From the NCBI RefSeq assembly GCF_024585285.1, contig NZ_CP040755.1, positions 2,170,001-2,234,000 of the forward strand: a stretch of 64,000 nucleotides of DNA, given 5' to 3'. This document shows, piece by piece, positions 3,417 to 21,295 of this stretch. How positions within the stretch are numbered: position 1 is the stretch's first letter; every line of letters starts with the position of its first letter. The DNA comes from Colwellia sp. M166 (GTDB lineage Bacteria; Pseudomonadota; Gammaproteobacteria; Enterobacterales; Alteromonadaceae). The position numbers and the translations under genes are program-made. The notes beneath the pieces are model-generated. The model searched no databases. It had not been told where the DNA came from and saw only the letters and a program-made list of their open reading frames with translations.

Positions 3417-3436
3417 TTTAAACATTTTTCAACATT
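3417..3436. repeat. Putative left attachment repeat
   Basis: The sequence TTTAAACATTTTTCAACATT overlaps the last codons of the helicase gene. It matches 21278-21295 (TTTAAACTTTTCAACATT), and its 14-base part ATTTTTCAACATTT (3424-3437) is exactly repeated at 21345-21358 in the same orientation. The location at both edges of the recombinase-bearing region suggests attL/attR, but integration has not been shown. Confidence 0.45.
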
Positions 3437-5592
3437 TCTGCCAAGGCGGTTTTACGAGTATCAACTGCGCCTTGTTTGTTAACACCATAACGAAAATCCG
3501 TTTCCTTGCCAATAATATGTACTTTATCTTCTGCTCTTGTCACAGCCGTATACAACCAACTACGATCAAGCAACCTTCCTCGTTCAAGTAAAACAATTAC
3601 ATTCGGTGCTTGTGACCCCTGCAATTTATGCAAAGTTAAGCAGTAAGCAAGATCGATATATTCAAATAATTGCCAATCCACTTCTAACAAACGTTTATTA
3701 CCTTTTTCATCAAGGTCTTCAAGTTCAATAACACAAGCATATTCATCTGTAGGTTCAGCACTCTTAATGACACCCAATGTACCATTCTGAACATCGTGTT
3801 TGTAACTGGTCAGGGTAATGACAACAGGGTCACCTTCCCTGAAATCATAGCTTCCTTTAGTAATAGGCATATCCGTAAGGTCAAGAATCTTGCCATTAGG
3901 GTTCACAACGCCTTGCAGCATAATGTTTGCTTTTCTTACTGTATCATTGGTAGGAGCGACTATCATAGCGTTGTCATACTCAAAATATGCAGTTACTGCG
4001 TCTTGCAGAATGTTCCCTGTAGATTCTTGAAGCGTAATATCAGCAGTAGTTAATGACTCTGGCATTATGCCGTGCCGTATTGCATTGGAATATGCAGGTA
4101 CACTACTATCTGCTCCCTGTCGTTTCACGACATCAAGTTCCACATGGTTTATTGCACCGCTTTTAATGACATCATTTAAAATCAACCCCGCATTAATCGG
4201 TGGAAGCTGATAAGGATCACCAATTAACAAGATTCGAACTTTATCAGAAAACAAAGTAACTAAACGCCACATGGTATATGCATCCAACATGGAGGCTTCA
4301 TCCACAAGTAATACAGCCTTATCTTCATCAAGATCAGTTTCTCGCAACAGTTTTGCAATCGTTTTCGCTTCACTACCGATTGATTGTTGAAGCCTACGGG
4401 CTGCCTTTCCCGAAAGTGCAACGGGGTATATCGTATAACCTAATTTTTGATAAGCATTTACAATCAGCTTAGTAGTCGTTGTTTTGCCTGTTCCAGCTCC
4501 GCCTGTAAGGGCGAAGACATGGCTGACTAATGCTGTCCTTACGGCACGTTCTTGTGCTTTTTCAATGGGCCAATCGGCAGGAAATGAGGTTATAAAAGCC
4601 TCTTCTAACTCGCTCGACCAACGATTGTCTAATTTTCTGAGGTTACCAAAACGTTTGGCTATTGTTTTCTCAAATATATAATTGCCAGAAACAAAGTATT
4701 GGTTGTTTTTCTTAACAAATCCTATGATATCGCCATTGAGTTCTTTTGCCTTAGAAACTAGGTGCTCGTCTTTATTTAACGAGTCCGAGACACATGATTC
4801 GATGTCTTGCCAATCTGCAACCGTATTACCTTCATCACTCCATGACCTCAATGCTTGCTCAACGATTGCGACTAGTCTAATTTTTTCGTCCTGTTTTATA
4901 CCAAAGTGCTTTTGAGCAATAGCATCTACCTTCGGAAACCGCATTCCCAGCGAAAACAACCGATACGGGTTCTGGGTAAGAAAATTGATAGCATCCTGAT
5001 CGGCAAATCTGAACAATTGTCGCTGAATAGGGGCTTCTATTTCCCATTCAACCAACTGCGCTGAATGTTTTAGATTTGAATACTCTTTATAGCCATTCCA
5101 AAGCCCATGTACCGCTTTGTCTTTAAGCAGCACTTCCCTGACAGCTTGAAAGTTTGTTTTTGATTGGTCTTTTTCGTATGGGGCATATTTATCACATTCT
5201 AGGATGTTGAATATATCGCTTCTAAATTCAATCCAGAGTAATTGAGCACTTACTTTACCTATGCCTTCAAATACTTTCTCTGTGCTTAAAAAGGTTACAA
5301 AGCCAGCACCATTATCTGGCATAATACATTTCAGTGTCGGCTCCATAAAGCGCCATACATCAACATACCTACCTGTGCTGACTTGTTGCTGTCTGATACT
5401 GAAGTTTTGCTCTTTAAGGATTTTCCATTGCTGCCCGACTTTCGGATCAATATTTAACTTGTCTTGAGTAGTCAGAATCTCAATACGATGCGCACCTGCT
5501 TTGTGGTTAACAAAAATAGCTCCCAGCCGGACATTATCCGGGTGGTACTGGTATATTCTGGTGATCCTTACCAGATAAGCACTACTCTTCAT
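3418..5592 (-). CDS. RecD2-like ATP-dependent DNA helicase (island-borne)
   Basis: This superfamily 1 helicase of 724 residues has, in order: an N-terminal region of unknown fold; a RecD2-like helix-hairpin-helix stretch (NPYRLFSLG.RFPKVD, about residues 205-225); a Walker A motif GGAGTGKTTTTK (about 365); a Walker B motif LLVDEASMLD (about 430); and the C-terminal UvrD-like motif LTLHKLQGSQ with TAVTRAEDK. RecD2 proteins unwind DNA 5' to 3' without RecBC. The gene overlaps the upstream small-protein gene by ATGA, so I start it at 5592 and not at the GTG six bases earlier; the two are probably translationally coupled. It is the last gene before the putative left attachment repeat, and its stop lies inside that repeat. 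A role in island DNA processing or in defence is possible but not shown. Confidence 0.8.
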   Translation of the reverse strand: MKSSAYLVRITRIYQYHPDNVRLGAIFVNHKAGAHRIEILTTQDKLNIDPKVGQQWKILKEQNFSIRQQQVSTGRYVDVWRFMEPTLKCIMPDNGAGFVTFLSTEKVFEGIGKVSAQLLWIEFRSDIFNILECDKYAPYEKDQSKTNFQAVREVLLKDKAVHGLWNGYKEYSNLKHSAQLVEWEIEAPIQRQLFRFADQDAINFLTQNPYRLFSLGMRFPKVDAIAQKHFGIKQDEKIRLVAIVEQALRSWSDEGNTVADWQDIESCVSDSLNKDEHLVSKAKELNGDIIGFVKKNNQYFVSGNYIFEKTIAKRFGNLRKLDNRWSSELEEAFITSFPADWPIEKAQERAVRTALVSHVFALTGGAGTGKTTTTKLIVNAYQKLGYTIYPVALSGKAARRLQQSIGSEAKTIAKLLRETDLDEDKAVLLVDEASMLDAYTMWRLVTLFSDKVRILLIGDPYQLPPINAGLILNDVIKSGAINHVELDVVKRQGADSSVPAYSNAIRHGIMPESLTTADITLQESTGNILQDAVTAYFEYDNAMIVAPTNDTVRKANIMLQGVVNPNGKILDLTDMPITKGSYDFREGDPVVITLTSYKHDVQNGTLGVIKSAEPTDEYACVIELEDLDEKGNKRLLEVDWQLFEYIDLAYCLTLHKLQGSQAPNVIVLLERGRLLDRSWLYTAVTRAEDKVHIIGKETDFRYGVNKQGAVDTRKTALAEMLKNV

Positions 5593-6029
5593 TTCCACAA
5601 GCCCATTTCAATCAGTACATCTTTAAATTCAGATAGCTTGGCAACTTCGGCAGCTAACTTAGCATTTTCGTTTTGTAGTCTTCGGTTTGTTCTTTTTAGG
5701 TCTCTGACTCTAGCGCTATCTTTGATGTCTTCGTCAGTTTCTTTTGATACATCAATGATCTCTTTATCGAGAGGCAGGTTTTTCTTACGTTGCTGGTAAA
5801 CCCCTGAGGTAGCAAGTTCTTGTTTAAGTTCTTGCAACAAATCAAAGAGCTTTTTATTTCTTTTTTCCTTAAATGCAGAGGAATCAAAACCAAGCTCATC
5901 AGCAATTTTTTTGGGACTTAACGTATCACCATGCCAATAATCCAACCAATTAGGCGACTCTTTCGATTTCATTTCTGCAACCCAACCGAGAAATAAATCT
6001 CTGTTACGCTTGCCTCTTTCTTTACTCAT
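5589..6029 (-). CDS. Small protein resembling the VPA1267 family, coupled to the helicase
   Basis: The product is a charged 146-residue protein. Its N-terminal half (RNRDLFLGWVAEM ... LSPKKIADELGFDSSAF) resembles the short DNA-binding-like proteins annotated as VPA1267 family, which occur beside multi-recombinase modules. The C-terminal half (about residues 95-140) is a predicted coiled coil with a leucine/asparagine repeat. I start at ATG 6029, which has GGAGG at a good distance, and not at the GTG at 6041. The stop overlaps the helicase start. The other island end carries a protein of similar size and plan (15549-16046), so each end has a small coiled-coil protein paired with larger DNA enzymes. 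Function unknown; family link moderate. Confidence 0.7.
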   Translation of the reverse strand: MSKERGKRNRDLFLGWVAEMKSKESPNWLDYWHGDTLSPKKIADELGFDSSAFKEKRNKKLFDLLQELKQELATSGVYQQRKKNLPLDKEIIDVSKETDEDIKDSARVRDLKRTNRRLQNENAKLAAEVAKLSEFKDVLIEMGLWK

Positions 6030-6188
6030 CTTAACCTCCACCCACGATGTGTCTTATCGTAGTCCTAACACCATACTCCTTTGAGAACCAAAAAATAATT
6101 ATCTTTTGAATAGCGTTAAGTTTATTTTCTGACGGTGCGCCTTTCTCAGCTCTAATATCAATATGCTTTTTATTGAGAATACCAAAAG

Positions 6189-6638
6189 TTAATGGGCTAA
6201 AAGAGGCGATGAGCTGTTTAACGTCCGAATTTGCTCTGGCGAAAAGCCGTGCCGAAGTAATTCAAAATCATCTAAATCGATGATTGCCATTTTTCCTTTT
6301 CCAATGAGCTGATACTGTGAGTGACTGGATGTAATAACCTGCTGCGCCCCTATATCCATCGATACGATCCGCGATGTTGTCACGTAGTCCCCTTCGAAAA
6401 AGCGAAAAGTTTGATCGTGTTGTACTGTAGCATATAACACTTCTCCTATTAATTGTCTCCCATCCATGACACCAACAATATACCAATTTTTTACAGTGGT
6501 GTTCAAAAGCCTCTCCTCGAAGTTAGCGTGAGGATATATGATAAAAAAATCGGAATTAAAAGCATAACCAAAGCGTGGATCTAATCCTGACTTTTTTCTA
6601 TGGTGCAGTAAATAAAGGGAATAAAGTAGATTTTGCAA
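6189..6638 (-). CDS. Unknown protein, possibly DUF6957-like, maybe 5'-truncated
   Basis: The open frame is 149 codons, beginning only with a TTG that has no clear ribosome binding site. The core has NWYIVGVMDG, then FFEGDYVTTSRIVS, a pattern that recalls DUF6957 proteins (small cargo proteins of unknown function). That link is tentative. Just upstream, an ATG-started frame (MKNKLLTVIAKS...) runs into a stop and is out of frame with this one, so the true 5' end may be lost or frameshifted. A piece of a related gene survives at 15335-15450, where the shared words SGLDPR are encoded within a nearly identical 17-base stretch. The product would be soluble. Confidence 0.5.
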   Translation of the reverse strand: MQNLLYSLYLLHHRKKSGLDPRFGYAFNSDFFIIYPHANFEERLLNTTVKNWYIVGVMDGRQLIGEVLYATVQHDQTFRFFEGDYVTTSRIVSMDIGAQQVITSSHSQYQLIGKGKMAIIDLDDFELLRHGFSPEQIRTLNSSSPLLAH

Positions 6639-6858
6639 TCACAGTGAGTAGTTTATTTTTCATATGCTGTATACATAGTGATAAGAATTTGCATTAGCCT
6701 ACAAAGCTAAGGGATTTACTTGTTTATTTATTGATTCATAATAGCTTTAATTAGAGGCATGAGTCTTAAACCATACTACTCGGTTTAGCTTAATTAGTTC
6801 ATCTCTGATTACTGAGTTATTAATCAAAAACAATCGTTGTTAAAAGGAGTCGATCGCG

Positions 6859-8037
6859 ATGTCTACTTGGGCTGGAATTGATTTTGGGAAATATTCCATC
6901 GAGGAATGGCAAAATACGTATCATAAGTGGCTCTTCAATGATGCTGATCGCGTCAGAGAAGGAGACTTTATTGGTTACCGTATAGACACCGAAACGCTCA
7001 AACGCAGATTAGAACTTCAAGGAGTTAATAGGGCATCAGTTGAACTAGAGGTTAACGAGTTCAAAGGTTTATGGATAAAAGATATGGAAGATCTATTAAC
7101 CGAGACACTTGCCACTAAACACCGTGAAGAATATTCATGCTACATTGACGGACTTAAGAGTTGCTCTTTGAATAGCTGGTTGAAGCTTATCCCCATAGCA
7201 GCATCAATGCAAAAACATGAGATTACAGGAAGCTGTGATGAACCTAGTAAATTACTTTCATCGTTAACTAAAGCAGAGCAAAACCTTCTAAAGTTCATGT
7301 GTTCTGAATACGATGAATACCCTAATTACACTGCCGGAGGCTATCACTTTCCTTGTCTCTCATCATACAGTTATGCATGGGCAATTCTTCAATTTGTTAC
7401 CCCAAATTCAGTTTGTGAGCTGGATATATCACCATTAATTGACAGTGGTTGGGTTGACGATTTTGAAGATCTTGCAGAGTATCAAGCAGGGCAAACCAAG
7501 TTTTCCGAAAGAGCAAAGATTGAAATTCAGGATATAACTAAGCTTAGTGAATCGTTTAAAGATAATAATGTGTTACAACGTCTCTCTTATAGCGGGCTGG
7601 TTACAATACTTGAAGCTTATTTAGCGGACATAGCAAAACGACAGGTGCTTAATAAAGATTCCATTAAGAGAAGATTTGTTGAAAACTTCGACGCATTTTC
7701 GAAAAACCAGAAAAACTTAAAAGTAACAGAGGTCTTCTTTTGGATGGAGCAACTTGATAATCAGATTATAGAGTGCCTAGACAATTTGTCTTTCCATAAT
7801 GTGAAGACTATTAAAGCATTCTTTCCCTCTGTTTTATTGGTTAAAATTTCAGATGATTTAAGCGATCGCCTTGCTGTAGCAGAAATTACTCGGCACGATA
7901 TCGTTCATCGCGCAGGGAGAACTAAAGATGGGAAGTCCAACGAAGTAACTTTGGCAGATGTGAAAGCTGTATCCACATTAGTGCTGGATATCATAACGTC
8001 TGTGGATTCTCAAATCGTTGATGGAATATTGGTGTAA
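6859..8037 (+). CDS. HEPN-domain protein with R-x4-H motif, possible defence RNase
   Basis: The product is 392 residues with no membrane segment. The C-terminal third (about residues 245-385) is helical and carries RHDIVH, the R-x4-H motif of HEPN ribonucleases, preceded by the helix SYSGLVTILEAYLADI. This matches the HEPN type common in defence and toxin loci. The N-terminus (MSTWAGIDFGKYSI, then LKRRLELQG) resembles the small domain of HEPN/Toprim-associated proteins, but this is by eye only. The start at 6859 follows AAAGGAG at a rather long spacing. It is transcribed against the surrounding leftward genes and has no antitoxin-like partner beside it; the IS1202-like element sits 24 bases after its stop and may have removed one. 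Confidence 0.65.
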   Translation: MSTWAGIDFGKYSIEEWQNTYHKWLFNDADRVREGDFIGYRIDTETLKRRLELQGVNRASVELEVNEFKGLWIKDMEDLLTETLATKHREEYSCYIDGLKSCSLNSWLKLIPIAASMQKHEITGSCDEPSKLLSSLTKAEQNLLKFMCSEYDEYPNYTAGGYHFPCLSSYSYAWAILQFVTPNSVCELDISPLIDSGWVDDFEDLAEYQAGQTKFSERAKIEIQDITKLSESFKDNNVLQRLSYSGLVTILEAYLADIAKRQVLNKDSIKRRFVENFDAFSKNQKNLKVTEVFFWMEQLDNQIIECLDNLSFHNVKTIKAFFPSVLLVKISDDLSDRLAVAEITRHDIVHRAGRTKDGKSNEVTLADVKAVSTLVLDIITSVDSQIVDGILV

Positions 8038-8045
8038 GTGTAGTT

Positions 8046-8061
8046 GAATTAGATGTAGTAG
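8046..8061. repeat. Target-site duplication, left copy
   Basis: GAATTAGATGTAGTAG here is identical to 9811-9826. The two copies directly border the IS1202-like element. Confidence 0.9.
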
Positions 8062-9810
8062 TGTGATTACCAAGGGATTGTGTCGGTCTAATTACCGAGC
8101 GACTTTGTCGTAAATAGCATATCAGCCAGTTGTTAAACTGGCTATGATTTATGCCTATTCTTACAACGCTTGCGACCTTGCAACTCTCAGTGCAGTGGTA
8201 TTCAAATTGTTTCTTAACCACATGCTACGCACACCGCCTGCGCTAATATCAATACCGAGGGCTTCAGTCAGCTTGATGGCCACTTTCTGTTGACCAAGGT
8301 GGGGATGCTCAACGGAGAATTTTACGACTGCATCTTCGATGGCTTTATCTACACAGTTTTTATGTCTTATATCGGGAGTTTCTTGGCGTTTTAAGGCATC
8401 AGGACCGCCTTGCTTAACCAGTCTTAAGTGTCGGTGAATAGTGTCTCGTGAGACGCCACTTTGTCGTGAAGCTGCACTGATACTTCCAAGCTTTTCGATT
8501 AATGCCAACACCTCTAGTTTCTTTTGTACTGTTAAGTCTTCTGATTCAAGCTTACTTGGCTCATTTACTTCAGATACCTTGAGTTGCCGCCCTGCGAAGT
8601 GTGCGGTGAAGCCTTTCTTGCTGGTGTTTCGGATCTCAATTTTCTGATTAGCTATGGAATGTTTTAGCGGTGAATCAATCAAATAGAACTTGTTACCGTA
8701 GCTGAAGGTGTGGTCATTGCGGATCTTACGATGGTCTTTAATGACGCAGATATCATCAAGGTTGGTGTGTTTCGATAATGGTGTAAATTCAGGCGCTTGC
8801 TTTGATTTCACTTGAATTCTAGACTGCCAGAATTGTGGGATGAATACATGTTTCAGGTATGCATTAGCACTGGCTATATCTTTAATATTGTTAAGCCTTA
8901 GCTCAGGTACAAGGCGGTCTTGAAATGTATCAAAGGCACGTTCAACACGGCCTTTACCTTGAGGCGAATTGGCGAAGATAATCTCAATACCCAATTCTTC
9001 ACATGCACGCTGCATTTGTGAGAAGTTGCAACGCTTAGGGCCGCCGAAGATACCCGCTCTATCCACGTACAGCGTTTTAAACACGCCCTTAGTTTCGATG
9101 CAATCTCGCATGACTTTCATACAACCAGCGGTGGTTTCAGATGGGAAGAACTCTGCATGTACTTCACTGGTGGCATCATCAATCATCGCAATCAAACAAT
9201 GCTTCTTATCGCCAAACCAACGATGGGGACTACCATCCATCTGCATCATTAAGCCCGGCGCTGCCATACGCTCTCTGCGTTTTCGAACATTGCTACGTCT
9301 TCGTTTGGCTCGTTTAACGTGATGAATATCATGTGCCCAACCGCGAAGGGTTTCACGCTTAATAACAATGTTCTCATTCGTAGCTAATTGTTCAGCCAAG
9401 TGCAACAGATTCAAATCGTAATATTTTTCCTGAATCAATTTTTGAACCGCTTTTTTTATTGATACCGGCGTTTTGTTGGGTGGGGCTTTGCCACTGTTAC
9501 CATGCACAACAAACTGAATACCGACTTTCTGATATCTCTTCACATAGCGTTCTATTGAACGTCTAGACTTACTGAGTAACTTAGCAGCATTGGCAATTGT
9601 TATTCTGCCTTCAACCACTTTGGCAATTATATCAACGGTTAGTTGAGCTTTAGAATCCATCACAATCATCCTCAACATGCCTTCTAGTATTCAAAAACAA
9701 GAACACTAACAAACATGTAAAAAAGAGACCGACAGTTTCCCTTGGTAATTAGCAATTACGACAGAATTGCTTGGTAATTAAGATACGACAAAGTCGCTTG
9801 GTGTTAACAG
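8062..9810. mobile_element. IS1202-like (ISNCY) insertion sequence, 1749 bp, with 16-bp target duplication
   Basis: The ends start with TGT and form imperfect inverted repeats (ACCAAG.GA.T.TGTCG). The repeat unit occurs more than once at each end: left at 8066-8087 and 8091-8112, right at 9728-9749, 9757-9778 and 9785-9806 in the opposite orientation. Such arrays are probably transposase binding sites. A 16-bp direct duplication borders the element exactly. Long target duplications are known for part of the IS1202 family. The single gene looks intact, so this copy may be active, and the unmutated duplication points to a recent insertion. Confidence 0.88.
8161..9660 (-). CDS. IS1202/ISNCY-family DDE transposase
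   Basis: About 499 residues. The N-terminus carries a helix-turn-helix region (ITIANAAKLLSKSRRSIERYVKRY is a typical IS recognition helix pair). The catalytic core shows the DDE triad: D in MQMDGSPH, D in LYVDRAGIFG, and E in GKGRVERAF. A second helix-turn-helix (SISAASRQSGVSRDTIHRH, about residues 405-425) lies after the core, and a short conserved tail ends with SMWLRNNLNTTALRVAR. Length and motif order fit the IS1202 group. I choose ATG 9660 (MDSKAQ); TTG and ATG codons up to 18 bases upstream are also open. No frameshift is seen. Confidence 0.9.
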   Translation of the reverse strand: MDSKAQLTVDIIAKVVEGRITIANAAKLLSKSRRSIERYVKRYQKVGIQFVVHGNSGKAPPNKTPVSIKKAVQKLIQEKYYDLNLLHLAEQLATNENIVIKRETLRGWAHDIHHVKRAKRRRSNVRKRRERMAAPGLMMQMDGSPHRWFGDKKHCLIAMIDDATSEVHAEFFPSETTAGCMKVMRDCIETKGVFKTLYVDRAGIFGGPKRCNFSQMQRACEELGIEIIFANSPQGKGRVERAFDTFQDRLVPELRLNNIKDIASANAYLKHVFIPQFWQSRIQVKSKQAPEFTPLSKHTNLDDICVIKDHRKIRNDHTFSYGNKFYLIDSPLKHSIANQKIEIRNTSKKGFTAHFAGRQLKVSEVNEPSKLESEDLTVQKKLEVLALIEKLGSISAASRQSGVSRDTIHRHLRLVKQGGPDALKRQETPDIRHKNCVDKAIEDAVVKFSVEHPHLGQQKVAIKLTEALGIDISAGGVRSMWLRNNLNTTALRVARSQAL

Positions 9811-9826
9811 AATTAGATGTAGTAGC
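9811..9826. repeat. Target-site duplication, right copy
   Basis: Identical to 8046-8061. From here to 10098 no gene is visible; a GTTAGGC stands alone at about 10071, without a partner that would make an integron attC site. Confidence 0.9.
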
Positions 9827-10098
9827 TCATATCTGATCTTACAGTTTCGATGAATAGGTTTAGACTTCATCTGACAGACAGCTATGAGCGACAAGCGGAC
9901 AGTGATAGATTATGATGTTTGAAGGCTAAACTCGGTTTCCTTCGAGGCTATTGTTTGAATAATGTATCAAGTATTTGTAAGTAATAGGCTATCCCCCTAA
10001 ACTTAAAATTGAATTTAGTGGAACAACTTTCAAAGATCAATTAAAGTTGATTGGTAGTTTTAGTTAGGACGTTAGGCAACAAAATAAAGGAATAAGTA

Positions 10099-10662: not shown

Positions 10663-10943
10663 TTACTTAGCAAAGCCGCCAATGTCAAAAGTTGCAGTAA
10701 ACAGTATTCTGAAACCAGTGGGTTACGGTGCTTTACCTTTTTTTAAAATTTGCTTTCAGTATTTCCGATTGAATAAGCTTCTTTAATAGTCAGGAAATCA
10801 ACTGATGTTTATTATTCGAACACTTACGTATATAGGTGAATACTTTCTAAATTCAATATGGATATTCAGAGGGTAGTAACAGAGCGATTATGCAATAACT
10901 GTGTATCGTATAAGTAATAAAATGTTCGCTATGCAGAGGGTAT

Positions 10944-11381: not shown

Positions 11382-11418
11382 TGCAGTACTAACGATTAGT
11401 TTCATGGAGGACGTTCAG

Positions 11419-12574: not shown

Positions 12575-12741
12575 ATCACACTCCTTAATTGTTAGTAATA
12601 TTATTTACTCTATTAATTAATAACATTGGAACATTTCAATTCATTTCCAACATTAGTAAAACTGCGTAATATCATGAAGCCGATCGGTCAATACTATTCA
12701 AGCCGATCACTTTTTTGTCTGCCAGTAGACCTTAGTAAAAT

Positions 12742-13506
12742 CTAACTTGAGTGATCGCCATCAGTCAAGGAATTTAGTTTTTTTCGCATCGATTCGCCTT
12801 TTAATTCCAACTTTATTGCTCCGTGAACAAGCCGATCTAGGATCGCATCAGCATGTGTCGATTCTCCGATCATTTCATACCAATTTTCTATCGGTAATTG
12901 GCTGGCAATTAAGGTCGATTTTGTGTCATATCTCGCATCAATTAATTCCAGTAAATCACTGCGTTGTTGAGCTGTTAATGGCTCTAATCCCCAATCATCT
13001 AGGATCAGTAAATTGGCAGAGCTAAGCTTGTTGATCAGTTTTCGATAACTACCATCGGCTTGCGCTAAGAACATCTTTTCTAATAGCTCTTTAAGCCTAA
13101 AATAATAAACGCTACTCCCTTGTTGGCAGTGGTTTTGACCAAGAGCACAAGCGAGGTAAGTTTTGCCACACCCCGTTGCTCCCGTGATCAAAATGTTTTG
13201 GTGAAGGCGTAGCCATTCACCTTGTGCTAATGAACGGATCTGAGTTTTATCTAGTTGTCGTGCTGCGCCATAGTTGAGTTGAGCAAGCGTACCGCCAACT
13301 CTGAACTTTGCTTGTCGAGTTAGGCGGTCAATTTTACGCTGATCACGCTGAGTTATTTCATGGTCAAGCAATAAGCTTAGTCGCTCTTCGAAGCTTTGTT
13401 CAACGTAGAGATTGGGTTGCTCATATTGCTGCAATAGTGCATCACGTATACCGCTTAGCTTTAAGTTACTTAACTGGTTATTGACTTGTTGATTGATATT
13501 TTGCAT
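12742..13506 (-). CDS. istB: IS21-family helper ATPase IstB
   Basis: A 254-residue AAA+ ATPase related to DnaC. Visible are the Walker A motif GATGCGKTYLA (about residues 108-118) and Walker B LLILDDWGLEP (about 166-176), followed by the sensor region TLIASQLPIENWYE. IstB directs the transposase IstA to target DNA. Length is usual for the family, and no break is seen. It follows istA by 28 bases and is probably cotranscribed. Confidence 0.93.
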   Translation of the reverse strand: MQNINQQVNNQLSNLKLSGIRDALLQQYEQPNLYVEQSFEERLSLLLDHEITQRDQRKIDRLTRQAKFRVGGTLAQLNYGAARQLDKTQIRSLAQGEWLRLHQNILITGATGCGKTYLACALGQNHCQQGSSVYYFRLKELLEKMFLAQADGSYRKLINKLSSANLLILDDWGLEPLTAQQRSDLLELIDARYDTKSTLIASQLPIENWYEMIGESTHADAILDRLVHGAIKLELKGESMRKKLNSLTDGDHSS

Positions 13507-13534
13507 AAGATTTCCTTTGGTTTGTTAGTTTTGA

Positions 13535-15097
13535 TTAATGGTAATAGTTGTTGCCGCGGATATTTTTATGATCAATATCTTGTAGTAAATCACCTTGAGC
13601 TTGTGGCAAGGGTTGCTTATCCAAGCCCTTTTCTAAAATGTTTTTTACTTGTTTTACGCGAGTAACACCTGTGGCTAATGCGCGATGACAGGCTGCTTCA
13701 AGACGTTGGTCAGTAAACTTCTTACCTAGGCTTAATAACCCCATACAAGCACGGTAGCTTTGCTCTGGATGCTTTTTAGCTTGCATCAATTGCATAACAA
13801 ACTGCTCCGTTGAACCACCGAACTTAGCTGCCCAACGTTCGAACCGTTGTGGTGACCATTGCTGCTGCTTTTGATGAGCTATTGGCATATGTAGATCAAG
13901 CGTGGTGTGTGCACCTTCTCGGTGTGATCTTGGGTGAACGGCTACTTGAACACCCTGATGGTAAAGTGTCACCAGTTGACCTGTGGCATGGGCTTCAAGC
14001 TTTTGTTTGATCAAGGTATGAGGTACTGAGTAGTAGTGTTTTTCAACTTCGACATGATAATCAATATGCACGCTTACTTGTTTGACTAAGGTGTAACTGT
14101 AAGCCTGTGTGGGTAGTGGTTTGAGAGCAGGTTTATCAATGGATTCAAACTGACTGAGCCTTGAACCAGGGTGCTTCTTCATTTTCCGCTGGTTTAAGTC
14201 GACAAGCAGTTTTTGTATCTTTAGGTTTAATTGGCGCAAGCTAAAGAAGCTTTCATTGCGAAGCCGTGCCATTATCCAGCGTTCGACAATTTGCACACCC
14301 ACTTCTGCTTTGGCTTTATCCTTGGGCTTATAAGGTCTAGCAGGCACAATGACCGTATCATAATGTGTCGCCAATTGTTGGTAGGTTGGATTTAAATCAG
14401 GCTCATATCGACAAGGTTTAGTTACCGCACTTTTTAAGTTGTCAGGGATTACCAGCTCTGGCACACCACCAAGAAACTCAAAACAGCGAGCATGACTCAT
14501 CACCCAATCTTCTAGCTTTTGGCTATACGTTGCCTCCGCATACGTATAATTAGATGCGCCCATAACTGCGACAAACACTTGAGCTGTACGGTATTCACCT
14601 GTACTAGCATCAACAATATTCATAGTTGGGCCGCAGTAATCAACAAACAGTTTTTCACCTGCTTTATGGTTTTGTCGCATGGACGGTTTTTGACATTTAA
14701 GCCATGCCTTGTACTGTCGGCAGAAGTGGGTGTAACTGTAAAATCCTTCCTCGTGTCGCTCTTTGTATTCTTGCCAAAGCAGCAATAGCGTCATGGTTTT
14801 GGGTCGCAGCTCCTGCTGAACTAACAACCAGTCAGGAATACTAAAGCCTTTTAGTCGGGGCTTTGTTTTGAAGAATGCTCGTTGCAGAGAATGATCATCC
14901 CATTTTTCATCAAGCGGCCAGCAAGTGATACCTAACTCTGCTGATTTACAGGCATATTTAGAAACAATTGAAGGTGAAATAGATAAGCTGTTTGCTATCT
15001 TTCGATGACTGAGTTTACAGTCGTATTTTAGTCTTAAAATCTCTTTAAGTTTACGCATTGAAATAGGTGCCGTTGGCATGGTTATTCTCATCATCAA
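13535..15097 (-). CDS. istA: IS21-family transposase IstA
   Basis: A DDE integrase of about 510 residues. It begins with a helix-turn-helix region (LSHRKIANSLSISPSIVSKYA, about residues 35-55), then the RNase H-like core with D in LFVDYCGPTM, D in VIPDNLKSAV and E in KAKAEVGVQI. The C-terminal region (about 330-420) binds DNA in the family. The frame could start at several ATGs (15097 or 15079); MPTAPISMRK looks like the usual start. It is intact, so the element may be active. Confidence 0.92.
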   Translation of the reverse strand: MMMRITMPTAPISMRKLKEILRLKYDCKLSHRKIANSLSISPSIVSKYACKSAELGITCWPLDEKWDDHSLQRAFFKTKPRLKGFSIPDWLLVQQELRPKTMTLLLLWQEYKERHEEGFYSYTHFCRQYKAWLKCQKPSMRQNHKAGEKLFVDYCGPTMNIVDASTGEYRTAQVFVAVMGASNYTYAEATYSQKLEDWVMSHARCFEFLGGVPELVIPDNLKSAVTKPCRYEPDLNPTYQQLATHYDTVIVPARPYKPKDKAKAEVGVQIVERWIMARLRNESFFSLRQLNLKIQKLLVDLNQRKMKKHPGSRLSQFESIDKPALKPLPTQAYSYTLVKQVSVHIDYHVEVEKHYYSVPHTLIKQKLEAHATGQLVTLYHQGVQVAVHPRSHREGAHTTLDLHMPIAHQKQQQWSPQRFERWAAKFGGSTEQFVMQLMQAKKHPEQSYRACMGLLSLGKKFTDQRLEAACHRALATGVTRVKQVKNILEKGLDKQPLPQAQGDLLQDIDHKNIRGNNYYH

Positions 15098-15334
15098 AAA
15101 TGAAAAGAATAACGGTTAGAAACACCTACTGGATAGACAAAAATGAGTATAAATTGAACGATACCATTCAAGCCGATCACTCAATACCATTTTGACCAAA
15201 AAGTGATCTGCATCGATGGTATTGAGTGATCGCGATGGATAGTATTAAGTGATCGGCTTAGATGGTATTAGGTGATCGCGATGCATGAGAATATGCAAAA
15301 ACATCATGGTATCCAATAACTTTTTAAAAACATA

Positions 15335-15450
15335 TCAAATACGTGGATCTAATCCTGAGTTTTTAAATTCAAACACATTTAAATTTTCATCAACATCTTC
15401 AGCTCGTGATGGAAATTCGATTGCGAACTCATTTAAACAGTCAAAAGCTA
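15335..15450 (-). pseudogene. Fragment of a gene related to the 6189-6638 protein
   Basis: Read leftward, the region gives LNEFAIEFPSRAEDVDEN, then VFEFKNSGLDPR and a stop. The SGLDPR words are encoded by GGATTAGATCCACG, within a 17-base stretch shared with 6571-6590. No start codon is seen (a TAA lies a few codons upstream) and the body of the protein is missing. It is likely what remains of a second copy or of the displaced 5' part of the other gene. Confidence 0.5.
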
Positions 15451-15548
15451 TTTCTTAAAAGAATACAATGCTAGTTTGATTGAATTAGAACGCTATCTAA
15501 TCTGAACTGATGTACTGTTACAAACGGAGTAAGTTAATGTAGCTAAAA

Positions 15549-16046
15549 TTAACTTCGATTCTTTGCTGGTAACCCACTATCAATAGTTGCAGCAAGCTTA
15601 TTCAAATCAACACCATCCATCTTCTGAAGATTATGCTGCCACCTAGCAAACCTTTCAAGCAACATGTCATTATGGGTACTTAACCTATTGTTCTCTGAAG
15701 AAAGCCTTTCGTTCTCGTTTTCAAGCTTTTCAACTCGCTTTATAAGTTCAGCAATGGTTGCATCATCATTGTCCAAATTTTCCAAAAGCTGGCTTAATTT
15801 ATCAGAGCTATCGAATATCGATTTAGCCTCTTCAATAGCAATTGATTTCTTGTTTCTAAGCTCTTCTTTCTTTAAGCCAAATGCATGTTTGATTTCATCA
15901 TGCTTTGTGTAAGTGTGCCTTGATGGGGGACGTTTTAAGCCCAATTCTGATTGAAGCCTTTCAGAAAGAAGATCATATGTAAGCTTACCGCTCCAACCAT
16001 CAATGATCGCTAGAATCGTTTCTTTATTATCTGTTACAAAAGCCAT
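15549..16046 (-). CDS. Small coiled-coil protein of the recombinase operon (GmtX/TnpC-like)
   Basis: The product has 165 residues and is the last gene of a four-gene leftward operon. The N-terminal part (LTYDLLSERLQSELGLKRPPSRHTYTKH) looks like a winged or helical DNA-binding domain, of the kind seen in Tn554 TnpC and GmtX-type proteins. A coiled coil runs from about 95 to 135 (ELIKRVEKLENENERLSSEN). I start at ATG 16046 with GGAGGAG five bases upstream, and not at GTG 16052 within the stop of the gene before. In Tn554 the small third protein orients or stabilises recombination; a similar role here is inference from position and size. Confidence 0.75.
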   Translation of the reverse strand: MAFVTDNKETILAIIDGWSGKLTYDLLSERLQSELGLKRPPSRHTYTKHDEIKHAFGLKKEELRNKKSIAIEEAKSIFDSSDKLSQLLENLDNDDATIAELIKRVEKLENENERLSSENNRLSTHNDMLLERFARWQHNLQKMDGVDLNKLAATIDSGLPAKNRS

Positions 16047-16048
16047 TA

Positions 16049-18292
16049 TCACTCCTCCATACCAGATAATGCCAAGGCAGTAAGGTCGAAGATTGGTATA
16101 ACATTTTGCTCATCAATATTAAGTGACCGTTTAACAGGGGAAGGGTCTAATTCGTCAGGAATTCTGATAGGTGTGCCATCAGGTCTGTTTGGATCTTCCA
16201 TCATAGCAATAATGGTTTTAATCTTTGATAACCTAAAGCCTGAGGCAGTTACCCAACGATCAGCACCGAAAACTTTGTCTCCTGCTTTAACGATTGCATC
16301 CTCTAATTGCTCCTTATTAAGCTTTTCAAGGTTTTTAAGCTCTTCTAGAGTGTTTGGCAGCCCCTTAAGGCATTCATGGTCGCTACAGACCGCACAATCG
16401 CCATTTTTAACACACGGACTTTCTGCATAATTGTGGACACAATAACCTAACCCTGTGAACTGAGCGACACCTGAGCGATTAATCCCAAGTGACTTGAGAG
16501 AGACTGGTAAGCCTAAATCATGCAACACGATTGCAGGAGGTGGCGACTCTGATGTGTATGGCGATAAAAACTGATTAGCTTGAGCAACCGTCATAACACC
16601 TTCACCATTTGCAACATGGCCTATACGCTTGGTTAACCGTGACTTTTGCTCTTGAGTTCTACCATCGTAAGCTTTATTTTGTTCTATATCCGCTCGACCT
16701 GACCACTTGGCAATCAGCCAATCTTCTTCACCAGCCAGTTTCAACTTAGTATTCAACCAATGCCGAGGTTGGTGTGTATTCAATTGTAACCGCGTGCCAT
16801 CTTCGTCTGTGATTGCCAATTCATCAAAGATTGACTCGATTGTTTCTTCTCCTGAAGGGCGATCTGACCCCATAGCATCACTCACAGCTCCATGACCGAC
16901 CATTACCCAAGAAAACGGCTTAACATCAAACTCTTTGTGAAACTCATTCTCGCGAACTAAGGTAATGCAATCCCAAAGCTTCACATCACCATAATTGGGA
17001 AAGTCTTTTGTTTTATATTTTTGGTCAACAACAGAGCGAAGATCTCTATAACTAGGGAATTTTATACTAATCCCAGTAGGGTTATGAGTGTGTTTAGTCA
17101 GTATTTCGTTATCCTGCGAAACTTTACACCCATTCAATAAATCCTTCTTCCAATCTGCCACATGATTGATTTGGCTTATTAAGTTACGTAACCATTTTAG
17201 TGAACCATTATGCGTCCAACTCATCTGTGTTCCGTTTGAATCCAGACCAGTCTTTAAGCACATTGCTTTTGCAAATTGATTATATGTTAACGGTTTGTCA
17301 TGCGGGAAATCAGTAAGTGTAATGCACTCTTCATGCGTCATAAAAATGTTGGGATTTTCAAAAGCAAATTTCGCCGCAGCTCTAGCGGGAGCAGAAATAT
17401 CAATGAGTCTGTCAAATGCCTGCTGTACGACATCCTCTAGTAGTTTAGGCACCCACTTTTTAACTGGGTCTCCTCCTTTTGCGGGGTGCCACATTAGATA
17501 TAAACGTCCCTTTTCACTTCTTTGTAGTGAGTTTATTGTTAAACCATTAAGTTCTGTATTTCTGCTTGGCTGACACATCAACATTACACATAGACTGGTG
17601 AAGTATTTTTGACGAGGTGTTTTAGCTTTATGAAAGGCATCCGCCACTTGAAGCATTTGATAGTCAGAAGGACATTTCTCCACTTCTTCTTTACGACTGT
17701 CTTCATCAAGTTTAATTCTGGAATCGGATGGACGAGGGAAAGGATTTGACCACTCTTGTAAATCTAGTTTGAATCGCTTGTCCTTAATAAACTTCAATAT
17801 TTTTTCAAATGACAGGCCAATATTGCGCTTGCCTCCAGCACTCAATCCGCTGTTCTTAATCTGCTCTTCCACACGATTAATTACCGTGTTATTGAGGTAC
17901 ATAATATCAATGGCTACTCTACCATTTTGAGTCGCATTTTCTTCTAATGCATTGTGAAGCCATACCAATGAAGAGGCCCACATAACTGAGTCTTTGTGAT
18001 TGAGCGACTGTTGGTATCGTACATAGGCTTTGGCAAAGTCAGCAAATGGCTGCTTAAATGGTGTATATTTCGAATGATTTTCGCTGTTACCAAATACGAT
18101 GGTTAATTTCTTTCCTCTTGCTGTATTCCAAGACCACTTATCACATTCCCATCCCTTTTGAATTCCGCTAGGGCTTTCAAAGTCAACATCCTCAAAAAGC
18201 GTTAAATCGTTTTTTGCAAATGCTATGAACTCCGCGTAGTTTTTCTGGAAATCAAGTTTATGCTTCGGTGTAAATACCAATACATCAGACAT
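16049..18292 (-). CDS. Large tyrosine recombinase-like protein (GmtZ/VPA1269-like)
   Basis: The product has 747 residues. The C-terminal half shows a degenerate tyrosine recombinase core: an arginine box (MCQPSRNTELNGL, about 235-250), a lysine-bearing strand (HPAKGGDPVKKW, about 270), H-x-x-R in HQPRHWLNT (about 515), WSGR and a tyrosine in QNKAYDG (about 545-555). A cysteine cluster (CVHNYAESPC, CAVCSDHEC, about 635-670) could bind zinc. The RHWLNT ... SGR ... Q.K/E AYD signature is typical of the VPA1269/GmtZ proteins that accompany GmtY recombinases. It overlaps its neighbours at both ends (8 bases with the 535-aa gene, and 3 bases from the small gene), so the operon is tightly coupled. 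Confidence 0.78.
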   Translation of the reverse strand: MSDVLVFTPKHKLDFQKNYAEFIAFAKNDLTLFEDVDFESPSGIQKGWECDKWSWNTARGKKLTIVFGNSENHSKYTPFKQPFADFAKAYVRYQQSLNHKDSVMWASSLVWLHNALEENATQNGRVAIDIMYLNNTVINRVEEQIKNSGLSAGGKRNIGLSFEKILKFIKDKRFKLDLQEWSNPFPRPSDSRIKLDEDSRKEEVEKCPSDYQMLQVADAFHKAKTPRQKYFTSLCVMLMCQPSRNTELNGLTINSLQRSEKGRLYLMWHPAKGGDPVKKWVPKLLEDVVQQAFDRLIDISAPARAAAKFAFENPNIFMTHEECITLTDFPHDKPLTYNQFAKAMCLKTGLDSNGTQMSWTHNGSLKWLRNLISQINHVADWKKDLLNGCKVSQDNEILTKHTHNPTGISIKFPSYRDLRSVVDQKYKTKDFPNYGDVKLWDCITLVRENEFHKEFDVKPFSWVMVGHGAVSDAMGSDRPSGEETIESIFDELAITDEDGTRLQLNTHQPRHWLNTKLKLAGEEDWLIAKWSGRADIEQNKAYDGRTQEQKSRLTKRIGHVANGEGVMTVAQANQFLSPYTSESPPPAIVLHDLGLPVSLKSLGINRSGVAQFTGLGYCVHNYAESPCVKNGDCAVCSDHECLKGLPNTLEELKNLEKLNKEQLEDAIVKAGDKVFGADRWVTASGFRLSKIKTIIAMMEDPNRPDGTPIRIPDELDPSPVKRSLNIDEQNVIPIFDLTALALSGMEE

Positions 18293-19892
18293 TTAACGCT
18301 CCTTCTTTTTCCAGCTCTTGCTTTCTAACATGACACTTTTGAATAACGACTTTGATTGCATCAATACTGCGATTATGACCTTGCAATACAAACTCACTTG
18401 CACCCATCTTACGCTTACGATCACGCTCAGTAATGACACTTTTCAGAACTTCTGTATGAGGTGCATTTAACCAAGGTTGGAATTTATTGCAGGTGTAACA
18501 ATGAATTGTGCCATTAGCACAAAAGCCAAACTTTCCACAGCTTCCGACAGGATTGCCATCGTTGTTGTTGATTCGACTGCGAGGATCATTAGCTCGAATT
18601 GCGTCTTTTTCACCATCTATCAAAGTTCCTGAAAATGCTTGCGCCAATGGCGTAAGATCCGCTGCAAGCGCTTCATCAATTCTGTCAGCCATTTCTTCGT
18701 TGAACTCTGTATAAACTTTGACTTGCTGGGTATCTGACTGGCCTAGTTCTTCGGCTATTGCATAGTCACTTGCACCTAGCATTGCCATATTGGTCGCATG
18801 GGTATAGCGGAATCTCCTTGGATTGATATGCAGGTCACCAAACCCATCATCTAACTTAATCCGTGTTGTTTTTAAAGGGCAAAGTCGAGACAAGCGCCTG
18901 ATTATTTCATCAACTGATGGATTTCCAATTTTTGTTCGTAAACATAATAAGTCAGGCGTTTTTTGTTGTAGCTGTTCAAATTCATCAAAACTAGCGAGTT
19001 TAGACATTTCTCGTGTATTGAGGAAAATAGGAATTTGGTTCTTTTGTCTAGATGTCAATTTAATATCGAATTGTGTTTCAACAGCATTGATGGATTGATT
19101 TGCCTGTGTTTTTAGCACTAGCATTAAATCTTCACCAGAATCCTTCTTGATTTGAAAAGAGCCTCTAAAATGCTCATCACGTTTTTTGGCATTTGGAAGC
19201 TGTAAATCAAAGTGTTCAACACCTTCTTCAACCCTTGTTATTAAATCTCTATAGTAGAGATACGTGAGTTGCACAGGACGAGCACCCGTTTGTTGTAGTG
19301 CCATGATAAAGGCGTAATCAATCAACGAGATCAGCCTTTCAGTAAAGGCATCAACGTACCAGTTTATAAATGCTGTTTGTTCTTCAAATGAATAGGCACC
19401 GCTGAAAGGGCAACCTAAAGCTACGGCTTTTCCTTTTTCATTGCCAGACAGTTTAAGTGAGTTAAGCAACTCAACCGTTTTTTTATCAACTCCTTTGATT
19501 TCCTTGTCGTGCCAGTCTAATAAGAATGCACGAATGTAACCCAGCTTATACTCTGTGCTTTTGGTTAGTGTTGCCTTGTAATTTATTACATGTTCTTCAT
19601 TTATTTTGCCCGTAACGCCAACAGCGAAGAACCACCGACAATATCGAAACAGATTATCTGTATAAGAAGATGAAAATTCACATGCATAATCAGCTAATGC
19701 TAACCGAAAATTACTTTCGAACTTAGGATCTAAATTTAGCGAAGCGAGCAACTCAAAATTCAACGACTTATTTGCATCTAATTGCCAAAGATCGTCATAC
19801 ACATCAAATTCATAGTTAGCTTTACTGTATCGCTTATCCGACTTTGTTCTAGCGCTTTTTGAGCCGTGTAATTTTTTTGCTTTAGCTACCAT
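18285..19892 (-). CDS. Second tyrosine recombinase with altered active site and Cys cluster
   Basis: A 535-residue protein. The core arginine box is TGARPVQL (about 200-207). At the H-x-x-R box it has NPRRFRYTHAT (about 355-366), so arginine replaces the usual histidine, and at the second histidine position it has LGQSD (Gln). The putative nucleophile is in VKVYTEF. A cysteine-rich stretch, CGKFGFCANG then HCYTC (about 455-475), may bind zinc. This plan recalls TnpB of Tn554. It starts inside the end of the first recombinase (11-base overlap). Function with its partners is likely; the changed residues may make it a structural or strand-specific subunit. Confidence 0.78.
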   Translation of the reverse strand: MVAKAKKLHGSKSARTKSDKRYSKANYEFDVYDDLWQLDANKSLNFELLASLNLDPKFESNFRLALADYACEFSSSYTDNLFRYCRWFFAVGVTGKINEEHVINYKATLTKSTEYKLGYIRAFLLDWHDKEIKGVDKKTVELLNSLKLSGNEKGKAVALGCPFSGAYSFEEQTAFINWYVDAFTERLISLIDYAFIMALQQTGARPVQLTYLYYRDLITRVEEGVEHFDLQLPNAKKRDEHFRGSFQIKKDSGEDLMLVLKTQANQSINAVETQFDIKLTSRQKNQIPIFLNTREMSKLASFDEFEQLQQKTPDLLCLRTKIGNPSVDEIIRRLSRLCPLKTTRIKLDDGFGDLHINPRRFRYTHATNMAMLGASDYAIAEELGQSDTQQVKVYTEFNEEMADRIDEALAADLTPLAQAFSGTLIDGEKDAIRANDPRSRINNNDGNPVGSCGKFGFCANGTIHCYTCNKFQPWLNAPHTEVLKSVITERDRKRKMGASEFVLQGHNRSIDAIKVVIQKCHVRKQELEKEGALNV

Positions 19893-21225
19893 GATAGTCC
19901 CCGTCTGTTTTGTGCTTCATCCGCGATTGCATTCTTTGGCGTATCCTTTGCGCCTGTTTTCTTGCAGTTCGCTTGAGATAAATCTCACCTGATTTAAGAG
20001 ATGAATGTCCATTTAATTCGGCTCTTATCTCCAGCTCTCGCTGCTTTGTAATCTTATTTTCGTCTGCATATTGCTTTGCAGCTTGATGCAGCCCCGCCTG
20101 TTCCAATCGTTTTACTTCTTGCCTGACAGCCCTTCTTTCCTCATCAACCTGATCTGACAGTTGATCATTAAAATAATGTCTATAAGAATGAGGTGTAATA
20201 GCCCAGAAACGCTCAGGGTTCACACCTTTAATGCTTTTAAATATATCGTTAATTGTTTGTTGAATGAGCGGTTGTCCAGACTGGTAATGTCCCTCCTTAT
20301 CTTTGTGAGAAACAAAAATAAATGGGTGTGTTTTCGCTACTTTTGTATCAGCACGATGAATCTTGATATAAGTGTTTAGTAAGTCTCTAAGCTCTTTTGT
20401 AATAGAAACCGCTCTGCCGAGGGTCTTTGCTGTTGGCTCTTTTACCCTAGGATCATCCTTACTGTCATGTCTTCTAACAACTGACAATGTTGGATTGTCA
20501 ATATCTGTTCCAATATCGCTAATTCGAAGCGCTAATAACTCAGCACATCTAAATCCTGTTTCATACAAAACTTGAACAATGAGATAGTTTCTAAACTTGA
20601 TAACTGGGTTTTTAAACGGGTTGTAATGTGAATCAGGCTTAGCTACCTCAACAAAGTCATCAAATACATCATCTGGAATACCAGACTTATCTAAGGAAAC
20701 TTTCTTCGATTTTCCTTTTGGCTTACCACTCTTAAGTCGAGTTTTCATCTTATCCAGCGCCTCAAAAAGTTCTGCGGCTGCTGGCTTATACTTGACTCTT
20801 TCTTGCCCTATAAAGTGAAGAAACTCTGCAATGTGAGCTATACGGGATATATATTGAGATTTACCAATAGTCGGTTTGTCTTGTGATTTTGATAAATAAA
20901 ACTTTCCCATATCGACCACGTTACTTGCTGGTTTATCTTTAACCACTTTAGCCTGATATGAGCAGTGCTCTTTAAGTTTATTAATATCATCAAGGTTAGG
21001 TACTTTACCGTTATATATTTCCTCAAGCAGATCCCTACCGTTAATCTCCTCCCAGCGTTTCAAATGTTTAATGTCTTTCAGGTATTGCTCAATTGATGTT
21101 GCAGCTTTAGTCATTCGCAGTTTTTGCGTAACAAAATGAGTGACCCAAAAATCGGGAACGCCATCTTCTCCTAATAAAAAGGCGTAGCGCTCTCCACTTT
21201 TAAATTTCTTTACAGCAACTTTCAT
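19882..21225 (-). CDS. Tyrosine recombinase, first gene of the module (GmtY/TnpA-like)
   Basis: A 447-residue site-specific recombinase with a complete catalytic set: Arg in YETGFRCAELLAL (about 220-232), Lys near TAKTLGRA (about 265), H-x-x-R in TPHSYRHYF (about 343-351), His in LNGHSSL (about 412) and the nucleophile in GEIYLKR (about 422). The N-terminal 170 residues are a SAM-like core-binding domain. A charged helical insertion (EERRAVRQEVKRLEQAG) lies between the boxes. I start at ATG 21225; a GTG at 21231 is also open. It is the gene nearest the right attachment repeat, about 50 bases away, as expected for an integrase beside its att site. Confidence 0.85.
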   Translation of the reverse strand: MKVAVKKFKSGERYAFLLGEDGVPDFWVTHFVTQKLRMTKAATSIEQYLKDIKHLKRWEEINGRDLLEEIYNGKVPNLDDINKLKEHCSYQAKVVKDKPASNVVDMGKFYLSKSQDKPTIGKSQYISRIAHIAEFLHFIGQERVKYKPAAAELFEALDKMKTRLKSGKPKGKSKKVSLDKSGIPDDVFDDFVEVAKPDSHYNPFKNPVIKFRNYLIVQVLYETGFRCAELLALRISDIGTDIDNPTLSVVRRHDSKDDPRVKEPTAKTLGRAVSITKELRDLLNTYIKIHRADTKVAKTHPFIFVSHKDKEGHYQSGQPLIQQTINDIFKSIKGVNPERFWAITPHSYRHYFNDQLSDQVDEERRAVRQEVKRLEQAGLHQAAKQYADENKITKQRELEIRAELNGHSSLKSGEIYLKRTARKQAQRIRQRMQSRMKHKTDGDYHGS

Positions 21226-21277
21226 GAACACCCACTAATAAACATTTATATTTGTTATAAAGTAATATAGTGAATAT

Positions 21278-21295
21278 TTTAAACTTTTCAACATT
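21278..21295. repeat. Putative right attachment repeat
   Basis: TTTAAACTTTTCAACATT matches 3417-3436 apart from a 2-base indel. It lies between the first recombinase start and the ssb terminator. A further copy of the core (ATTTTTCAACATTT, exact 14-mer of 3424-3437) is at 21345-21358, on the other side of the terminator, so the true crossover point cannot be fixed. Confidence 0.45.

Follow-up and report, generated by a model that had tools for sequence, protein, structure and literature searches.

Whether a helicase gene pair can form part of the machinery that moves an integrase island is the question raised by a stretch of 64,000 nucleotides from Colwellia sp. M166 (assembly GCF_024585285.1, contig NZ_CP040755.1, positions 2,170,001 to 2,234,000 of the forward strand), hereafter the window, which is part of a 4.84-Mb single-contig chromosome. 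A reading of the letters alone, hereafter the original prediction, had described there a mobile block with recombinase genes at one end and a helicase with a small protein at the other, and had left open whether the core that moves includes the helicase pair. Our best explanation, to which we give a probability of about 0.6, is that positions 3265-21377 constitute a GInt-type mobile island of ~18.1 kb at the 3' end of ssb, that its movement is driven by gin-type recombinases, and that the helicase cassette carried on its attR side is a mobility accessory. The reading of the block as a mobile island, with recombinases at one end and a helicase at the other, is supported. At the level of sequence, the layout, the att sites, the conservation of both ends, the association of the pair with recombinases and the exchange of the cassette are shown.

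Organization of the Island and Its Recombinase Quartet

The end on the ssb side (attL, 21375-21383) is called the left end and the opposite one (attR, 3256-3264) the right end. From ssb to the AT-rich stretch at 3265, the island encodes proteins of 449, 535, 747 and 167 amino acids (aa), an IS21 pair, cargo, and the pair of 150 and 726 aa, the quartet and the helicase pair being separated by 9,507 bp. The GC content of the island was no different (39.4 vs. 39.8%), and no tRNA target was present within the window.

21375..22064, minus strand: ssb, the target gene (PF00436, 3.3e-40)
19882..21231, minus strand: ginA-type tyrosine recombinase, 449 aa (PF00589, 5.2e-15)
18285..19892, minus strand: ginB-type integrase, 535 aa (NF041502, 459 bits, cut-off 350)
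16049..18292, minus strand: ginC-type protein, 747 aa, named from its position and its relatives in ssb-linked quartets
15549..16052, minus strand: ginD-type small protein, 167 aa, with a helix-turn-helix (HTH)-like part and a long coiled coil in the model (predicted template modelling score, pTM, 0.43)
5589..6041, minus strand: small cassette protein, VPA1267-like, 150 aa (NF040697, 55 bits, E 9.2e-15, below the cut-off of 90)
3418..5598, minus strand: RecD2-like helicase, 726 aa (TIGR01448, 326 bits over residues 54-722, below the cut-off of 500; HHH_RecD2 over its cut-off)

The quartet genes overlap by 11, 8 and 4 bp. Recombinase motifs, assigned by eye from those of the family, were seen in GinA (TGFR, HSYR and GHS...Y) and in part in GinB and GinC. 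The three recombinases and small protein announced for this end were recovered as a tyrosine recombinase, a second integrase and a coiled-coil protein at 15549-21231, the 747-aa ginC-type protein having no Pfam or NCBIfam match. The resemblance to GMT islands, with four genes in place of the usual trio, is accounted for by the ginABCD layout of the quartet, at a known GInt site.

The island was assigned to the GInts because the quartet layout, the ssb 3'-end site and the AT-rich far end are as in GInts, and by layout, site and domain matches it is of this known type, at a site already described for it. At one end stands an operon whose first three genes are integrase-like and whose fourth is small, the direct repeats are imperfect (10-17 nt in GInts), the insertion is site-specific, at the ssb end often used by GInts, and the short 3' end is AT-rich (27.5% GC at 3265-3417). 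In the available text of PMC5385486, six of eleven selected GInts sit in an ssb homologue. NF041502 was not used for counting since only 3 genomes were found with this marker among 369 of the class.

Likely Attachment Sites and Conserved Ends

21375..21383, plus strand: attL, CTAGAACGG, comprising the last codon and stop of ssb; its 6-bp core at 21378-21383, placed by alignment of related left ends, reads GAACGG, or CCGTTC on the ssb strand
3256..3264, plus strand: attR, the second copy of CTAGAACGG, with its core at 3259-3264
21361..21371, minus strand: left-end inverted repeat, AAGACAAAATA on the minus strand
3271..3281, plus strand: right-end inverted repeat, AAGACAAAATA
21345..21358, minus strand: subterminal motif AAATGTTGAAAAAT of the left end, 16 bp inside attL, one of the repeats of the original prediction
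21283..21296, minus strand: second left subterminal copy, with 2 mismatches
3424..3437, minus strand: subterminal motif AAATGTTGAAAAAT of the right end, within the final codons of the helicase gene
3265..3417, no strand: AT-rich right-end region, 27.5% GC vs. 39.7% for the window; the string GTACTGACCCTG of its minus strand is conserved
21315..21339, minus strand: hairpin followed by a T-run at the left end, a likely ssb terminator (fold z-score -3.37 for 21300-21380)

The two copies of CTAGAACGG are likely attachment sites. They are the only ones in the 64 kb, where 0.12 are expected, and at least two copies were obtained in 1 of 100 shuffles. An 11-bp inverted repeat lies immediately internal to each. 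Read on the ssb strand, attL is GATATTCCGTTCTAGACAAAGACAAAATA and attR is TATTTTGTCTTAGATAACCGTTCTAGCTTACG, and the direct repeats are exact over 9 nt and imperfect over ~15 nt (GATATTCCGTTCTAG / GATAACCGTTCTAG). The position of attR relative to the right end matches in Colwellia sp. 1_MG-2023 and V. zhanjiangensis. Both end sequences are common to related islands, the two ends lying on different contigs in Colwellia sp. 1_MG-2023, V. zhanjiangensis and Vibrio sp. S17_S38, and on one piece only in Rheinheimera sp. D18.

Next to the right end, Colwellia sp. 1_MG-2023 and Rheinheimera have six bases unlike those of attL, and in the window and V. zhanjiangensis the two sets agree, a pattern that fits, without proving, the 6-bp exchange described for SEs and GInts in the available texts of PMC5385486, PMC9345347 and PMC10214605. 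The stop codon of ssb at attL is unlike that beyond attR in Colwellia sp. 1_MG-2023 and V. zhanjiangensis, whose two ends come from separate contigs; the island thus seems to supply its own ssb stop, followed by the hairpin and T-run.

The subterminal motif AAATGTTGAAAAAT is exact in three of the five left ends of the window's clade (the window included) and has one mismatch in the other two. At the end of the helicase gene, GAA ATG TTG AAA is identical in four clade members, against such identity at only 73 of the 412 invariant degenerate codons; this identity is weak on its own because an equally long run occurs elsewhere in the helicase gene. In Colwellia sp. 1_MG-2023, the helicase and the right end are ~2.3 kb apart, the intervening stretch containing a 660-aa open frame (~3590-5920 of locus L107; handles in L and G denote our loci and genomes). 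The right end of this strain opens with a piece identical to the window over 53 nt, starting from the last nine codons of the helicase, and its helicase gene has its own, altered terminus. Since this end keeps the piece although the helicase terminus is separate and altered, the subterminal motif appears to belong to the element end. The string GTACTGACCCTG is kept in four right ends and in L107.

These sites displace the borders first proposed. Positions 3417 and 21295 or 21358 were ruled out as element borders by the att sites, the flank comparison and the conserved ends of related islands: the repeats found there are internal, 159 bp inside attR and 16 and 78 bp inside attL. The breakpoints were consequently off by ~150-160 bp on the attR side and ~20-85 bp on the attL side. 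The repeats themselves are real, ATTTTTCAACATTT being exact at 3424-3437 and 21345-21358, TTTTCAACATT occurring also at 21285, and TTTAAAC at 3417 and 21278. That chance matches are unlikely holds for the exact copies only; with 2 mismatches allowed, the 14-mer matches 6 times in the window vs. 3.55 expected.

The Helicase Pair

The helicase and second small protein expected at this end were both found, at 3418-6041, their genes overlapping by 10 bp. The helicase carries the motifs GGAGTGKT, DEAS and GDPYQLP and matches PDB 3e1s at 1.8e-31, which is presumably the Deinococcus RecD2; YrrC, too, we take to be RecD2. In the available text of PMC12143592, RecD2 translocates 5'-3' and acts at forks, and in that of PMC3000357, Bacillus YrrC is recovered with SSB and its foci require the SSB tail.

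By its profile match, the small protein is a distant relative of VPA1267. In its model, the N-terminal part is HTH-like and the C-terminal part a coiled coil, with a block of predicted local distance difference test (pLDDT) values of 82-93 at residues 11-80 and a pTM of 0.50, and its sequence matches among solved structures are nearly all coiled-coil proteins. It resembles GinD at the profile level (hhalign 88.5%, E 2.7e-6, from few sequences). No close relative of it was matched on plasmids.

Association of the Pair with Recombinase Operons

When 394 genomes of the order were searched for the VPA1267 family, matches were obtained at 26 places, distributed over 21 genomes; 25 of the places were examined, the 26th being a fragment of 37 residues. 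A RecD2-like helicase gene followed the small gene in all 25 (broken in L163 and L174, and cut by the contig end in G250). A recombinase set lay upstream in 23 of the 23 places with adjacent upstream DNA, 14 being gin-type, 3 GMT and 6 other. Some gin-type calls are weak (21-30% identity), L162 matching only ginA and ginD and L178 only ginB and ginC; the other sets were assigned by NCBIfam (L169), through similarity to L169 (L173 and L176), by Pfam (L180 and L181) or by a weak match of 3.5e-4 (L163). The remaining two places are the window and G250, where the quartet lies at the far end or on another contig. With 38 integrase-domain matches in the chromosome, a same-strand match no more than 9 kb upstream would occur by chance in ~3.5% of cases, by our own arithmetic, which ignores clustering.

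In the genome collection, five further loci encode the close form of the small protein, each followed by the helicase. Four of these five genomes also have a ginB 75-80% identical to that of the window; the fifth, a metagenome-assembled genome, gave no ginB match, and the island end sequence still follows its helicase. The close form of the pair was thus not seen alone as native genes, the outcome that would have contradicted the original prediction. The same end modules around different cargo, for which it had proposed to look, were seen in Rheinheimera sp. D18, where ssb, ginABCD, ~45 kb of mostly different cargo, the pair and the island end lie on one chromosome. In other ssb-linked gin-type loci (G248, G114, G299 and G710), the pair is directly behind the quartet.

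The association extends to plasmids. On an IncC plasmid, an NCBI-annotated VPA1267-family gene and an AAA ATPase gene directly follow gmtX, and this ATPase is RecD2-like and 35% identical to the island helicase. Of 46 matching plasmid records, 40 rows were listed, and in 32 of these a gene annotated as gmtX is overlapped by the VPA1267-type match. Three distant RecD2-like matches were inspected: one, without the small partner, adjoins the mercury-resistance block of a Salmonella IncC plasmid, another lies behind a VPA1269-family gene, and the last is unannotated.

The chromosome of the window also contains two more cassettes of small protein and helicase, of which one follows GMT-like genes and the other gin-like genes. 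An additional gin-like operon shows no cassette in the 13 kb inspected. The coordinates of these loci are as follows:

L175, G000:C1:360400-374000
L170, G000:C1:3688400-3702000
L104, G000:C1:896000-915900

Exchange of the Cassette

Locus L164 has a GMT trio and locus L167 a gin-type quartet, yet the two share 90.4% identity over 2,625 bp. The match opens at base 1 of the small gene and closes shortly after the helicase gene, and it is the only plus-strand match in 13.6 kb. The unit of small gene and helicase is also shared between L164 and L169 (84.3% identity) and between L167 and L102 (76.5%). L162 and L165 are both gin-type; their cassettes are 94.6% and their upstream genes 66.2% identical. 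In all 29 pairs compared across recombinase types, drawn from nine loci, similarity starts at most 9 bases from the start of the small gene on the query side, L162 and L170 having a second match elsewhere. Because unrelated upstream DNA also gives an onset at the coding start, it is the high-identity pairs that constitute strong evidence. As judged from these alignments, the helicase pair moves as a unit and is exchanged among recombinase types.

In a helicase tree of 28 sequences, the GMT label needs at least 4 changes relative to the gin-type and window-clade rows, and the five-member clade of the window forms one branch with a support of 100. This was a quick tree with long branches flagged; it omits the broken L163 and L174, whose longest piece is <550 aa, as well as G250, truncated at a contig end.

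Results That Weigh against This Interpretation

Some of the results on the empty site and on the place of the pair weigh against the reading of the locus as a gin-driven island with a helicase accessory. The empty-site comparison called for by the original prediction relied on the following outer flank:

3115..3255, minus strand: region downstream of ssb, containing a terminator-like hairpin that reads CCCAGCGTAATTGCTGGG on the ssb strand

After joining at CTAGAACGG, the two flanks were scored against the region after ssb in 15 relatives, with 100 mononucleotide shuffles as control. The joined-flank score was clearly above the best shuffle in G010 (60 vs. 28), G005 (41 vs. 25) and G007 (40 vs. 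30), and slightly so in G011 (29 vs. 26); it did not exceed the shuffle maximum in the remaining 11 of the 15, which gave no empty-site match. The island's own left end scored above shuffles in G003 (84 vs. 26) and G008 (58 vs. 32), and slightly in G005 (30 vs. 23), G015 (29 vs. 24) and G016 (30 vs. 28), so that G005 matches both the outer flank and the island left end. At ssb, G003 and G008 carry a left end like that of the island but no gin genes in ~19 kb, and G015 and G016 slightly resemble them; in G003 and G008 these ends, directly after ssb, are loci L047 and L045. From their sequence they are possibly relics, a host origin of the piece being an alternative. No island protein (ssb aside) was matched at E 1e-5 after ssb in 16 relatives of the genus, in ~19 kb of DNA for 14 of them, 13 kb for G012 and 2.7 kb for G016. 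Colwellia sp. 1_MG-2023 carries a related island, and the host side adjoining the right end of that island is nearly as in the window (TTCTAGCTTACG...). The alignments thus give the empty site good support in a few relatives and are silent or mixed in the rest.

As to the pair, 16 ginC-like loci were inspected. It was present in five, no pair was found in 11-30 kb beyond ginD in nine, and two stop at a contig end; a pair lying more distally would escape this count. Since 9 of the 16 gin operons show no pair over that distance, the helicase pair is to be seen as accessory and not obligatory. According to the available text of PMC5385486, a minimal GInt with ginABCD alone integrates and excises, and minimal GInts carry no helicase. 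None is carried by the 7-kb SE-6945 either (available texts of PMC9345347 and PMC10214605). Exchange of the cassette independently of the recombinases also argues against a tight co-function. The question of the mobile core is thus answered with a qualified yes: the pair exceeds a chance item of cargo, being a recurrent partner of recombinase operons of several kinds and an exchangeable cassette, but it is not an obligatory component.

Proposed Role of the Pair and Alternative Explanations

For the present island, we infer that the ginA-D-type operon recombines attL with attR, yielding a circular form that would then integrate at ssb, where the left end of the island would restore the ssb stop codon and terminator. 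The small protein might bring the helicase to the element end, perhaps via the repeated subterminal motif, and the helicase would process the fork left by one-strand exchange, in copy-out or integration, as an accessory of movement rather than an essential recombination protein. A role of the pair in copy-out replication would follow from this scheme, and the presence of a RecD2-like helicase at an ssb site may be a coincidence. More tentatively, the pair could be a portable replication helper for any multi-recombinase element (GInt, GMT, others) that performs the strand-displacement/fork step of copy-out, being here a fixture of the right end with its motif inside the helicase gene.

How multi-integrase elements copy out without leaving an empty site is unsolved, and we know of no enzyme for the strand-displacement/fork step of copy-out by tyrosine recombinases. 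In the available texts on SEs (PMC9345347/PMC10214605), a crosslink-repair and replication-priming step is expected to take part. A helicase cassette exchanged among otherwise unrelated recombinase operons is a candidate for part of the copy-out step; it also connects element families until now described separately and is a marker for finding more of them.

It is conceivable, if rather unlikely, that the pair is favoured cargo, serving for example in defence or competition, and does not contribute to movement. Such cargo would agree with an exchange independent of the recombinases and with the many gin operons that lack the pair, and GMT islands are known for defence cargo (per the title of Mahata et al. 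2024). The helicase also distantly matches the RecD models of PADLOC, whereas the small protein matches no PADLOC family. The position of the pair speaks for a role in movement: in each of the 23 loci it follows the recombinase set and does not lie amid cargo, and within the clade of the window its place at the attR end is constant whereas the cargo varies.

That two nested or fused elements are present, a gin island plus what is left of another element with the small protein and helicase as its core, seems improbable. Each end does carry a small coiled-coil protein, the two being alike at the profile level, and elsewhere the pair lies directly behind a complete recombinase operon; but the helicase end has neither a recombinase nor a second att pair, and other genera show this arrangement too, likewise with conserved outer ends.

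Membership of the SE or GMT group instead of the GInts is very improbable, for although SEs too have four core genes and a 6-bp core (available texts of PMC9345347 and PMC10214605), the differing six bases of Colwellia sp. 1_MG-2023 (ends on different contigs) and Rheinheimera recall the SE fingerprint rule and the VPA1267 family is annotated beside GMT genes, the NCBIfam models gave only 39 bits for GmtY (cut-off 340) and no match at E 0.1 for GmtX and GmtZ while matching a true GMT operon used as positive control, integrase-family matches fall on genes 1 and 2 and not on 1 and 3 as in SEs, and the ssb 3' end is a GInt site (available text of PMC5385486).

Cargo and Neighbouring Sequences

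6189-6638, minus strand: DUF6957-like gene
6859-8037, plus strand: HEPN/Toprim-N protein, with Pfam HEPN matches
8161-9678, minus strand: ISNCY-type transposase (NF033594, residues 17-369)
10099-10662, plus strand: zinc-ribbon membrane-like protein
10944-11381, plus strand: R-x4-H protein (RNFLSH)
12185-12574, minus strand: further cargo gene
12742..15097, minus strand: IS21-type istB and istA (PF01695, 2.2e-66; Mu-type transposase domain, 3e-18)

Two HEPN-motif proteins had been announced among the cargo. The one at 6859-8037 is supported by Pfam; that at 10944-11381 has the bare R-x4-H string only. The frame at 8161-9678 encodes 505 aa with extra C-terminal HTH domains, of IS630 type. PADLOC, run on ten island proteins, returned no convincing defence system.

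Outside the island, 716-2715 contains a gene similar to those of methyl-accepting chemotaxis proteins (MCP), apparently split into several frames, the copies of relatives lying elsewhere in their genomes. An original junction of this MCP-like gene directly with ssb was ruled out, the MCP-like locus of relatives being elsewhere (81 kb from ssb in G009). The segment 2850-3107, just outside the island, is part of a dispersed repeat of ~230-260 bp present at ~40 places in the chromosome. This repeat probably mediated a rearrangement that placed the MCP-like locus beside the ssb downstream region.

Comparison with Known Systems

The helicase of this GInt-type island, which we interpret as a mobility accessory, resembles RecD2/YrrC of Bacillus and Deinococcus in its superfamily 1B motifs, its HHH_RecD2 domain and its match to 3e1s. 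It differs in remaining under the RecD2 equivalog cut-off (326 of 500 bits), in being borne by a mobile element and in having a small partner.

With SEs (available texts of PMC9345347 and PMC10214605), the island shares four core genes, a 6-bp core and terminal inverted repeats. The two differ, as compared by gene order and domains, in their catalytic-type genes, the first and second in the island and the first and third in SEs: the SE order is intA-tfp-intB-srap with a non-catalytic second gene, whereas here gene 2 exceeds the integrase-family cut-off and gene 3 has no match. The main texts of both papers, as available, contain no mention of a helicase or RecD.

GMT islands (Mahata et al. 2024) share a small VPA1267-family protein followed by a RecD2-like helicase, placed there directly after gmtX. 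In the present island, the recombinases are not GmtX, GmtY or GmtZ by NCBIfam, and the cassette lies at the opposite end. In the literature available for searching, we found no paper linking GInts to such a helicase, although Mahata et al. 2024 may mention the pair, and the words helicase and RecD are absent from the main text of PMC5385486 as available.

GInts, as described in the available text of Bardaji et al. 2017 (PMC5385486), share with the island a four-gene operon at one end, cargo, an AT-rich far end, imperfect direct repeats and insertion at the ssb 3' end. To this arrangement the present island adds a helicase cassette at the far end.

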